The notes under the pieces were generated by a model. It saw nothing but the letters and a program-made list of their open reading frames with translations. It was not told the DNA's origin and did not search any database. 64,000 nucleotides of DNA from Methanofollis ethanolicus (GTDB lineage Archaea; Halobacteriota; Methanomicrobia; Methanomicrobiales; Methanofollaceae), in NCBI RefSeq assembly GCF_001571385.1, contig NZ_BCNW01000001.1, positions 248,001 through 312,000 of the forward strand. The letters run 5' to 3'. Every line of letters starts with the position of its first letter. Positions within the stretch are counted from its first letter, which is position 1. Both the position numbers and the translations under genes were made by a program. Shown here piece by piece: positions 3,178 through 30,450 of the stretch.

Positions 3178-3609
3178 TCACCGTTCGCGGGGGCAGCAGT
3201 CACCATCATGCTCGATAGGGCCGCACCCGCTCATCACCGGGTGGCCGAGAGACGCGCAGATCCGATCAACGAGGAACCGCGAGACATGGCCCTCGATGTT
3301 CTTCGCCTCCTGGCACGCCTCGTCGGCCGATAGCCCGAAACGGCTCAGGGCCAGGGAGACGACGCGGTGGCGGCGGACGAGAAAATGGGCATATCCTTCT
3401 CCCTTCGCACTCAGGCGGACGCCGTGATAGGGCGTGTGCTCCAGGTAGCCCTCGCGCGCGAGGTCGCCGAGCGCCTTCGTCGCCGTCGAAGGGGAGACAC
3501 CAAGTTCACGGGCGACCTCTGTTGTCCTCATCGCCCCGCCCCGGAGAGAAATGACCTTTAAAAGTTCAGATTTCCGTGCCGGGAGCTCAAAACCGTCGAT
3601 CTCCGCCAT
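3178..3609 (-). CDS. DtxR/MntR-family metal-dependent transcriptional regulator
   Basis: A 143-residue protein with an N-terminal winged helix (roughly residues 10-70; TTEVARELGVSPSTATKALGDL is the recognition region) and a DtxR-type metal-binding/dimerisation segment containing ADEACQEAKNIEGHVS. The C-terminus is Cys/His-rich (SGCGPIEHDGDCC), which could add a metal site. I chose the ATG at 3609 because the family starts there; a longer frame to 3711 would run into the promoter of the divergent DP1 gene. It lies 65 bases upstream of the metal ABC operon on the same strand and probably represses it. The metal sensed is not known. Confidence 0.85.
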   Translation of the reverse strand: MAEIDGFELPARKSELLKVISLRGGAMRTTEVARELGVSPSTATKALGDLAREGYLEHTPYHGVRLSAKGEGYAHFLVRRHRVVSLALSRFGLSADEACQEAKNIEGHVSRFLVDRICASLGHPVMSGCGPIEHDGDCCPRER

Positions 3610-27740: not shown

Positions 27741-29024
27741 TCACCGGAATGATGCCTTCAGGCGGTTGAGGTCGACCTGCACAAGCCTTTCCTCGGATAG
27801 CCTGGGATCTTTCGCTAATACTTCCTGTATCTTTTTCGTGTTGGTGTCAAACCACATCTCTTTTGTCCTTCCGTATCGTCCTTTCGATACGACCCTGCTG
27901 TTGATCACGCCGAGCATGCTCAGTTCTGAGATGAGGTCGGTGATCCGCCGGTGGGTGAGGGGGTCGATGTTGACGGTGCGGGAGACCTCGCGGTACACCC
28001 GCGTCACCTCACCTGAGGTGAAGATCTTCTTGTCCATCTGGTCAAGGAGGAGCATCGAGTACAGGACGACCTTGCTCTGGGTCGGCAGGGTCGAGATGCA
28101 CTCGATCATCGAGTCGGTCTCGATCTTCTCCAGGGCCATCCGCACATGTCTCTCCCCCACCTTCTCCGCATTCTCCCTATCCGCGAGTTCGCCGGAGACC
28201 CGCAGGAGGTCGAGGGCACGACGAGCGTCGCCATGCTCCTGGGCGGCGAAGGCGGCGCAGAGGGGGATGACCCCCTCGTCGAGGCTCTTCTCGACAAAGG
28301 CCATCTGGGCGCGCTGGCTGAGGATGTCGCAGAGTTGCGGGGCATTGTACGGGGGGAAGACGATCTCCTCCTCCGAAAGTGAGGAGAGGACACGGGGGTC
28401 GAGGAAGTCGGTGAACCGCAGGTCATTGGAGATCCCGATCATCGAGACCTTCGCACCTCGCAGGTCGGAGTTGATCCGGGTCAGGTTGTACAGGGTCTCG
28501 TCACCGCTCTTCTTGACCAGTTTGTCGATCTCGTCCAGGACGATGACGAGCACGCCGCCGGTCGTTTCGAGCTGGTTTTTCAGTTCGGCATAGACCTGGT
28601 CGGTCGGCCACCCGGTCATCGGGATGTGGGCGCGGGACTTGTCGCTCGGGGTGGCGTCGAGGTCCTCAAGGCCCTTCGCGATCTGGGCGAGGACCCGGTA
28701 CTGGGTGTCGATCACCTCGCAGTTGAGGTGGACCACCCGGCACCTGGTACCGGCTCCCGCGGCGACCTTTTCGAGTTCGGCCCCGACGTACCTGACACAG
28801 GCCGTCTTCCCTGTCCCGGTCTTTCCGTAGATGAGGATGTTCGAAGGGGTCTCGTTCTTGAGGGCAGGAGCGAGGATGGAGGCGACGGCATCAATCTGGG
28901 GGCGCCGGTGCGGGAGTATCTGGGGGCGGTACGAGTGACGGAGGACCTCCCGGTTTTTGAAGATCCGATTATTACTCAGGAACTTTTGAAAGAGTCCAAA
29001 GGATTGATGATCGTTTTCAGACAT
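27741..29024 (-). CDS. cdc6: Orc1/Cdc6 replication initiator ATPase
   Basis: A 427-residue archaeal initiator that binds origin recognition boxes, opens DNA and loads MCM. Seen: an N-terminal basic segment (NREVLRHSYRPQILPHRRPQIDAV), Walker A YGKTGTGKTA (about 65-74), Walker B VIVLDEIDKL, sensor 1 (MIGISND), sensor 2 region (GDARRALDLLRV) and a C-terminal winged helix (residues about 310-400) that reads DNA. The start at 29024 gives the family length; the frame is open further upstream through ORB sequence, which is unlikely to be translated. Directly upstream are two ORBs, and its TATA-like box touches the first, so autoregulation is likely. It is the only initiator in the window. Confidence 0.96.
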   Translation of the reverse strand: MSENDHQSFGLFQKFLSNNRIFKNREVLRHSYRPQILPHRRPQIDAVASILAPALKNETPSNILIYGKTGTGKTACVRYVGAELEKVAAGAGTRCRVVHLNCEVIDTQYRVLAQIAKGLEDLDATPSDKSRAHIPMTGWPTDQVYAELKNQLETTGGVLVIVLDEIDKLVKKSGDETLYNLTRINSDLRGAKVSMIGISNDLRFTDFLDPRVLSSLSEEEIVFPPYNAPQLCDILSQRAQMAFVEKSLDEGVIPLCAAFAAQEHGDARRALDLLRVSGELADRENAEKVGERHVRMALEKIETDSMIECISTLPTQSKVVLYSMLLLDQMDKKIFTSGEVTRVYREVSRTVNIDPLTHRRITDLISELSMLGVINSRVVSKGRYGRTKEMWFDTNTKKIQEVLAKDPRLSEERLVQVDLNRLKASFR

Positions 29025-29072: not shown

Positions 29073-29083
29073 GAGATATAACC
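29073..29083 (-). promoter_or_regulatory. Candidate cdc6 TATA box overlapping an ORB
   Basis: On the minus strand GTTATATCTCC lies about 50 bases before the cdc6 start codon and shares its upstream end with the ORB at 29080-29099. An alternative box, TTTATATAC, lies at about 29105-29113. With either, initiator bound to the ORB would compete with the transcription machinery, giving a simple feedback control. The overlap is seen; regulation is inference. Confidence 0.45.
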
Positions 29084-29099
29084 CCTTTGTTTCCATTGG
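29080..29099 (-). other. Origin recognition box next to cdc6
   Basis: On the minus strand the box reads CCAATGGAAACAAAGGGGTT, 18 of 20 identical to the ORB at 25961. It is oriented with its G-rich end pointing to cdc6. Confidence 0.8.
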
Positions 29100-29171
29100 A
29101 GACAGTATATAAACAAAATACCGGTCAGGGAGATCGCCGTCGAATCCATCGAGATCAAGAATCTGATCCCC

Positions 29172-29199: not shown

Positions 29200-29262
29200 G
29201 AAAACAGAGTATCTGTTTTCTTTTATATTGAGAAAAACAGCTTGTTGTAAGCTTCGCGACTT
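29200..29262. repeat. AT-rich segment with perfect inverted repeat, candidate unwinding element
   Basis: GAAAACAGA-GTA-TCTGTTTTC (29200-29220) is a perfect 9-bp stem with a 3-base loop, followed by a T- and A-rich run (TTTTATATTGAGAAAAACAG). It is the most AT-rich part of the ORB-bounded region and lies just inside the second ORB, which is where an archaeal duplex-unwinding element is expected. Confidence 0.55.
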
Positions 29263-29273
29263 GTACTATAAAT

Positions 29274-29794
29274 GATCTCTGATCTCAGAACAGGATCTTC
29301 TGATCACAAAAAGGAGGATCAGAGAGATCAGGAGAGATCCCGATCCCGGATCCCGGATCAGCGCGGCAACAGATCCCGATCTCCGGCAATCCATGGATCA
29401 GGATCCCCCATCCAGGATCAAAAATTGTCGATCTGGATCACGATCTGGAGGGTGTGATCCAGATCTCCCGGTCAGATCCAGATCTCCCGGTCAGATCCAG
29501 ATCTCCAATCCCTGGATCGATATCTTTGATCCAGGATCTCGATCTCAGATCACCTCTCCTGATCTCCTGATCGTTTTTCCTGATCTGATCCCTGATCTGA
29601 TCCCTGATCTGATCCCTGATCTGTGGATCCTGATCTCAGATCCGGCGATCCTGATCCCGGATCAGGGTCGGGATCCCGCGATCTTGCGATCAGATCAGGG
29701 GATCTTCCCGGGATCGTCTCATGATCTTCCATGATCTTCGGTGATCTCCTCGGATCCCGGGGTCTGATCGGCGGATCCGCGCGATATAATGATC
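29274..29794. repeat. GATC-saturated repeat tract inside the origin
   Basis: I count 57 GATC tetramers in about 520 bases, one per nine bases, mostly within GGATCC, AGATCT, TGATCT and TGATCC contexts. Parts are tandem: a 19-bp unit beginning GATCCAGATCTCCCGGTCA at 29456 (two full copies and a partial) and TGATCTGATCCC three times at 29581-29616. Coding regions I sampled have about one GATC per 70 bases. No convincing protein is encoded. GATC sites are self-complementary targets of Dam-type methylases; a methylase gene is not in this window. Confidence 0.9.
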
Positions 29795-29874
29795 AGAATA
29801 GTGGAGTACAGGTAAATTCAGGCTCTTTTCAACCTTTTTCGCGATATCTTCTCCCCTCCTATCTCTCCATTCTT

Positions 29875-29894
29875 CCAGTGGAAACAAAGGGGTC
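29875..29894 (+). other. Origin recognition box, plus-oriented copy closing the origin
   Basis: CCAGTGGAAACAAAGGGGTC, identical over 20 bases to the copy at 25961 and inverted relative to the two boxes beside cdc6. It ends the ORB-bounded region 67 bases before the moaB start codon, so initiator binding may also affect moaB transcription. Confidence 0.82.
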
Positions 29895-29961
29895 GGGGTT
29901 TGCGGCCCTTCTATCACAAGAAGTATCAGAGGGAGCGATCAACATATTGGTGAGGCATCTC

Positions 29962-30450
29962 ATGAAAACCGAGCACATCAAGCCGATCGAGATTACTGCG
30001 GTGGTGATCACTGTCTCTTCGACCCGTACCGAGGAGAACGATACCAGTGGAAAGGCGATCCGCGACCTCCTCACCGCCGGGGGATACAGGGTCGTCTTCT
30101 CGGTGATCGTGAAGGACGACAGGCAGGCGATCCGGGCCGCCCTTGTCACCGCGCTCGGGAAGGCCGACGCCGTGGTCCTCAACGGCGGTACCGGCCTCAC
30201 CCCTGACGACTGCACCATCGAGGCCGTCGAACCCTTCTTCGAGAAGAGGATGGAGGGCTTCGGCGAACTCTTCAGGATGCTCTCCTTCGACGAGATCGGG
30301 ACCTCGGCCCTCCTCTCGCGGGCGACCGCCGGCATCGTCGGCGGGAGGGCGGTCTTCTGCCTCCCTGGTTCGACCGGGGCCGTGACCCTCGCCACCGGCA
30401 AGATCATCGTCCCCGAACTCAGGCACATCATCTCCCACTCGCGGGGATGA
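29962..30450 (+). CDS. moaB: Molybdenum cofactor biosynthesis protein MoaB/MogA family
   Basis: A 162-residue molybdopterin-binding protein that adenylylates molybdopterin before metal insertion. The fold's hallmark NGGTGLTPDDCTIEAVEP is present, with ITVSSTRTEENDTSGKAI at the N-terminal side and CLPGSTGAV near the end. The ATG at 29962 follows GGTGAGG; an upstream frame would translate the origin. Formylmethanofuran dehydrogenase of methanogens needs this cofactor with Mo or W. It is divergent from cdc6 across the origin and is followed by a long non-coding region. Confidence 0.93.
   Translation: MKTEHIKPIEITAVVITVSSTRTEENDTSGKAIRDLLTAGGYRVVFSVIVKDDRQAIRAALVTALGKADAVVLNGGTGLTPDDCTIEAVEPFFEKRMEGFGELFRMLSFDEIGTSALLSRATAGIVGGRAVFCLPGSTGAVTLATGKIIVPELRHIISHSRG

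Follow-up and report, generated by a model that had tools for sequence, protein, structure and literature searches.

A GATC-dense tract in the predicted chromosomal replication origin of Methanofollis, and the stand-alone candidate GATC methyltransferases of the genus

Analysis of a 64,000-nucleotide stretch of Methanofollis ethanolicus DNA (the window, from genome G000) has revealed a tract packed with the tetramer GATC, which lies between inverted ORB-like elements next to orc1/cdc6, is kept in every Methanofollis genome in which the region can be read and, as judged by comparison of close species, retains its GATC words under purifying selection. Every genome of the genus also carries a candidate stand-alone adenine methyltransferase for GATC, and a DpnII nuclease was not found in any of them. 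Recognizing that a packed tract, retention of GATC and a methyltransferase in every species occur together, we surmise that Methanofollis may control chromosome replication by methylation, much like E. coli; we lean, if only a little, toward the view that the tract is a methylation-sensitive module of the chromosomal origin, marked by stand-alone GATC adenine methyltransferases. The evidence covers 11 species of one genus, with enzyme specificity taken from homology and the origin assigned from sequence.

By direct count, 57 GATC start inside positions 29274-29794 (521 bp, 53% GC), exactly the number reported in the first-pass annotation of this DNA, vs. 26.9 on average (sd 3.2, at most 37) in 2000 dinucleotide-preserving shuffles of the tract. 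The next-best 520-bp stretch in the window holds 14, and the window mean is 5.2 GATC per 520 bp, or one per ~100 bp; the background had been put at one per ~70, which is right in being far sparser than the tract but overstates the measured frequency. The tandem units described at first pass are real, one of 19 bp (2.7 copies from 29456, with 100% matches) and one of 12 bp (an array at 29559-29623). Words with one mismatch to GATC are scarce (11 vs. 57 GATC), the opposite of what a decaying repeat would leave. We assessed genome-wide clustering by a pattern search for three GATCs spaced by 1-5 bases (GATC-N1-5-GATC-N1-5-GATC), showing that 19 of the 87 forward matches in the 2.7-Mb genome fall in the tract; the sole other repeated group lies at the contig ends, in a 12-bp coding repeat of a secreted-type protein, and this second GATC-rich locus was rejected as a counterpart of the tract as it is coding. 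These coding repeats (DPTT, DDLIDD) stand at both contig ends (G000:C1 1-230 and 2705400-2705588; L194, L195), the G000 assembly having probably been cut within a repeat-rich secreted-protein gene. A 113-aa open reading frame within the tract was likewise rejected as coding, given 2- and 35-bp indels there in the alignment of G000 with G005 and open frames that vary between species. For helical phasing of the GATC sites, a weak 10.5-bp signal was seen in the G000 clade (P 0.008-0.03) and was absent elsewhere, and we make no claim of it.

The surroundings of the tract resemble those of an archaeal Orc1/Cdc6-ORB origin (Table 1), with inverted ORB repeats adjoining orc1/cdc6 and a low-GC stretch (28-34% GC at 29200-29274). 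Based on the ORBs and cdc6, the interval between cdc6 and moaB is a predicted replication origin, and the earlier placement of the tract between inverted ORBs beside cdc6 was borne out by the ORB-like arms and by both flanking genes. Between the second ORB and the tract, at 29233-29273, we noticed a non-coding conserved core, AAACAGCTTGTTGTA..GTACTATAaAT, that is nearly invariant in 11 Methanofollis. The AT-rich block likely acts as an unwinding element and/or a TATA-containing promoter, which could read into the tract. Since the AT-rich block comes directly before the tract, whose own GC content is 53%, the tract adjoins the probable unwinding element and is not that element, contrary to one of the roles suggested at first pass. 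The Cdc6 protein of the window genome is 93-98% identical to those of Methanofollis MAGs.

Table 1. Features of the predicted origin in the window, and the DpnA-like gene elsewhere in the same genome
Feature	Position	Strand	Remarks
orc1/cdc6 initiator gene	27741..29024	-	ATG at 29024-29022; ncbifam NF001625, 603.6 bits (cut-off 501)
ORB-like element 1, ACCCCTTTGTTTCCATTGGA	29081..29100	+	almost invariant over 11 Methanofollis
ORB-like element 2, CCCCCACCCCTTTGTTTCGACTGGAA	29168..29193	+	kept within the genus
AT-rich block, 28-34% GC	29200..29273	.	ends where the first GATC of the tract begins
GATC tract	29274..29794	.	57 GATC in 521 bp; spacings mostly 5-8 and 13-15 bp
ORB-like element 3	29873..29898	- (inverted)	92% complementary to element 2
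moaB-type molybdenum cofactor gene	29962..30450	+	TIGR00177, 110.8 bits (cut-off 85); other flank of the origin
DpnA-like gene	G000 C1:2066343-2067134, within L108:1336-2208 (C1 ~2066265-2067137)		PF01555, not of the TIGR00571 family

We compared the window genome with 11 further Methanofollis genomes, 12 in all, and found the tract in 11/11 with a readable region (homologous tracts in G001-G006 and G008-G011), in each case beginning 244-265 bp away from the start of cdc6, as a non-coding motif cluster at a conserved orthologous place in the origin. Genomes with the whole region have 57, 61, 86, 62, 60, 54, 28, 30 and 30 GATC sites, with tracts of 274-884 bp where whole; the tract of a MAG (G009) has 11, and that of G010, in which the contig breaks inside it, at least 19. 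The GATC count exceeds that of shuffles in each Methanofollis tract. The tract of G008 (L087) is enlarged and partly duplicated, with a 106-bp gap free of GATC at 3408-3514. At 86 other Methanomicrobiales cdc6 loci, GATC shows no excess (observed/expected 1.02), the best 250-bp stretch in any of them holding 9 GATC vs. 12-33 in Methanofollis; the tract is thus a trait of the genus Methanofollis and not of the order. The comparison of the cdc6-moaB interval among relatives that was proposed at first pass came out in favor of a kept tract within the genus, where genomes sharing the junction retain it.

Comparison of the window genome with the close species G005 and G008 exposed which bases of the tract are kept. 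Over its first 213 bp, aligned gap-free, G000 and G005 are identical at 88/88 GATC bases vs. 100/125 spacer bases (Fisher P = 1e-6), and G000 and G008 at 87/88 vs. 100/125 (Fisher P = 9e-6). Since alignment of more divergent pairs could be biased toward matching GATC, these were also aligned, as a control, after shuffling the spacers of one of the two sequences; for the best four pairs, the real alignments kept 68-95% of GATC sites vs. 43-66% in the spacer-shuffled controls. In addition, the tract persists between species whose tracts otherwise barely align, and the flanking consensus around GATC is slight and varies among clades. On these alignments the GATC tetramer is under purifying selection, in agreement with the first-pass annotation, which had GATC kept while other bases drift; its view of the tract as belonging to the origin core is likewise supported, in that conservation within the genus and retention of GATC mark the tract as a component of the predicted origin that is under selection. 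Tandem duplication evidently supplies the length of the tract, as exemplified by the 19- and 12-bp units and the longer tract of G008, and what lasts is GATC. A CcrM-type GANTC target was considered and rejected, GANTC occurring 0 times in the tract of the window and 0-5 times in those of the other Methanofollis.

For METHYLTRANSFERASES, we found two candidate methyltransferase families unrelated to each other, one DpnA-like and one Dam/DpnM-like; a genome search for a Dam-type methylase, as proposed at first pass, thus yields candidates. A stand-alone adenine-methyltransferase candidate for GATC is present in 12/12 Methanofollis genomes, with the DpnA-like beta-class gene in 9/12 (one a fragment) and the Dam/DpnM-like D12 gene in exactly the other 3, so that a conserved orphan candidate accompanies the cluster. 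The DpnA-like protein shares 48-49% identity over ~97% with the second methyltransferase of LlaDCHI (pSRQ700) and with its staphylococcal equivalent, both of which belong to three-gene GATC systems in which a D12 methyltransferase and, as nuclease, DpnII (PF04556) are encoded alongside; LlaDCHI has been described as a GATC system (PMC4190342). As the DpnA-like protein also matches CcrM (GANTC) well, with 214 bits, its specificity for GATC is probable, though short of proof. The Dam-like protein (L098) scores as a member of the Dam family (TIGR00571, 279.6 bits, cut-off 114.85) with D12 architecture, and its best structure match is 2dpm, DpnM. Homology and mutual exclusion together suggest that both enzymes methylate GATC.

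The DpnA-like gene has as neighbors a SIS-domain gene, a ferredoxin-thioredoxin reductase and a glutaredoxin, and the Dam-like gene a HAMP-domain protein; neither adjoins a nuclease. Since the divergent SIS-domain neighbor is kept across families of Methanomicrobiales and the DpnII nuclease (PF04556) was not found in the Methanofollis genomes by a search whose control matched, the DpnA-like gene looks like a vertically kept orphan. Among 185 Methanomicrobiales genomes, 38 have the DpnA-like gene, 129 the Dam-like gene and 4 both (34 and 125 with one), a mutual exclusion with P = 5e-18, uncorrected for phylogeny. In the five genera where both kinds occur, the counts are 4 genomes with both, 23 and 14 with one and 2 (of inferred genus) with neither (P = 3.5e-6). 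Repeated replacement of one family by the other would be expected if both do the same job, and the SIS synteny and the order-wide alternation suggest that an ancestral methyltransferase has been replaced repeatedly. Most other Methanomicrobiales carry one of these enzymes but lack the tract, showing that the methyltransferase does not need the tract. An extra Dam-family gene of G000 (L081:1411-2292; L197; C1 ~1763-1771 kb; TIGR00571, 187.8 bits) adjoins a putative HerA-type ATPase gene and has close by a 1011-aa frame that bears a DNA-methylase domain, in what is probably a defence island; its product could methylate GATC as well.

In the mechanism that we postulate, the DpnA-like enzyme (in most species) or the Dam/DpnM-like enzyme (in the rest) would mark the GATC sites of the tract, a passing fork would leave ~57 GATC sites hemimethylated together, and a DNA-binding protein sensing the methylation state, or the Orc1/MCM machinery, would respond, resulting either in delayed re-initiation or in an origin re-marked as ready. 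Of these elements, methylation of the tract in vivo, the timing of hemimethylation and the reader protein are those that we infer. SeqA (PF03925) was absent in the 12 Methanofollis genomes (the E. coli control matched), which speaks against SeqA-like timing in the strict sense, the E. coli parallel drawn at first pass; the RAMA domain, sought as a methylation reader in Methanofollis, was not found either, and in the DpnI_C search no control matched. More tentatively, we speculate that initiation is controlled by methylation of a GATC array in an Orc1/ORB origin through a reader unrelated to SeqA, and that this control survives the swap of the methyltransferase for an unrelated enzyme of the same specificity, in convergence with Dam/oriC; this fuller scheme could well be wrong. 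With the tract kept, GATC kept over its neighbors and candidate methyltransferases present, the tests laid out at first pass favor a functional GATC tract within the genus.

That other genera have the same enzymes and no tract argues most strongly against tying tract and methylation closely together: either those genera put the mark to other uses (e.g. in mismatch repair or transcription) and it was recruited in Methanofollis, or the tract has nothing to do with methylation. The chief rival to a methylation-sensitive module is a methylation-independent landing pad, to which a protein binds directly on GATC arrays (for origin architecture, helicase loading or segregation) with methylation being incidental. 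It agrees with the missing tract in those genera and with selection that acts on the tetramer itself, amid a slight, clade-dependent flanking consensus; however, the selected word is exactly what both methyltransferase families alternating in Methanofollis, the only two to do so, are predicted to target, and we know of no methylation-independent GATC-array binder in archaea, so we view the landing pad as unlikely, albeit a serious contender.

Methylation-sensitive control of transcription in place of a direct effect on origin firing, acting on orc1/cdc6 or on a transcript that would arise at the TATA-like site (29264-29273), is in our judgment improbable. The tract does lie upstream of cdc6 and adjoin a conserved TATA-like element, and bacterial Dam clusters also act on promoters, but it begins >200 bp upstream of cdc6, past both ORBs, and its size is far above that of the promoter switches we know of. 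We give even less credence to a structural element in which palindromic GATC hairpins on single strands serve unwinding or initiation: predicted single-strand folding of the tract is stronger than that of dinucleotide shuffles (z = -3.85), but any palindrome-dense sequence folds so, and the test is not discriminating since the shuffles lose palindromes; in addition, the adjoining AT-rich block is a better unwinding candidate than the tract at its GC content, and selection for hairpins would also have kept stem bases outside GATC. Neutral local expansion of a GATC-containing unit, the least probable of all, accounts for the growth of the tract, with its real tandem units, its length varying by species and its duplicated part in G008, but not for retention of GATC, and as a full explanation it is refuted, plain expansion being ruled out by spacers that diverged around unchanged GATC words in gap-free alignment, together with the rarity of decayed words and the persistence of the tract where it is barely alignable.

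Set beside known systems, the methylation-sensitive module that we favor resembles the Dam/SeqA arrangement at E. coli oriC in that an origin bears a GATC cluster beside the sites bound by the initiator, and the adenine methyltransferase for GATC is an orphan; unlike it, the Methanofollis origin is of the Orc1/ORB kind, SeqA was not found, and the methyltransferase is DpnA-like, not Dam-like, in most species. E. coli oriC has ~11 GATC, and the Methanofollis tract about five times more. Although the first-pass annotation knew of no archaeal equivalent, one was published in 2016: in haloarchaea, orc1/cdc6 genes have clusters of CTAG, the word of an orphan m4C methyltransferase (Blow et al. 2016, PMC4752239, Fig. 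6D). Both cases are archaeal and comprise a conserved non-coding cluster of a palindromic tetramer by orc1/cdc6, a conserved orphan methyltransferase and a suggested role in replication. There remain differences between them as evidenced by: 1) the word is GATC in Methanofollis, with predicted m6A, at one site per ~9 bp between ORBs and in one genus; 2) two unrelated enzyme families alternate in Methanofollis while the cluster persists; 3) the haloarchaeal cluster tracks the enzyme across species, whereas cluster and enzyme go together within Methanofollis and the other Methanomicrobiales have the enzyme without the cluster, for which reason the tract may work like the published kind without being a full member of it.

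The Dam-like D12 gene, with its 129 of 185 Methanomicrobiales genomes and three Methanofollis among them, is like HG3, a persistent Dam-like orphan GATC methyltransferase found in 15/19 genomes of Methanomicrobiales (PMC10609329). In contrast to HG3, the Dam-like gene is missing from most Methanofollis, and a syntenic DpnA-like orphan, to which an origin tract is linked, is found in its stead; the main text of PMC10609329 mentions neither DpnA nor Methanofollis. The two orphans resemble the DpnM- and DpnA-like methyltransferases of DpnII and LlaDCHI restriction-modification systems, but occur without the DpnII nuclease, as single genes in housekeeping surroundings. Both the clustering of orphan-methyltransferase motifs at origins and an orphan methyltransferase for GATC that persists in Methanomicrobiales have been published (PMC4752239, PMC10609329). 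As far as we have seen in the literature searched, in which no paper was found pairing Methanofollis with GATC, the Methanofollis GATC tract, its extreme density, the selection on its word and the alternation with a DpnA-like orphan are new. On whether archaea may time their replication by DNA methylation, the haloarchaeal CTAG case speaks through the position of its motif. Methanofollis, a genus that includes cultivated species, contributes an archaeal origin where a methylation motif is clustered far more densely, together with direct evidence of selection on the motif and a natural experiment, its two unrelated methyltransferases alternating while the tract is kept.

Outside Methanofollis, a wider methylation-motif principle at the origins of Methanomicrobiales was sought at the 86 loci and rejected, with observed/expected ratios of 1.02 for GATC, 0.88 for AGCT and 0.53 for CTNAG. 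Small GATC clusters (3-5 sites in 20-45 bp) occur near the position of the tract start in L169, L171 and L015, and clusters of at least 4 GATC in 45 bp at the tract position were found in L014, L015 and L169 vs. one in twice as much control sequence; these small clusters are suggestive of, and may possibly be, an ancestral form of the tract. In the cdc6 upstream regions of the non-Methanofollis loci (L003-L080, L156-L183), CTAG falls far below expectation (observed/expected 0.15), and the same origin regions show mild enrichment of CCGG (1.88) and GTAC (1.56).
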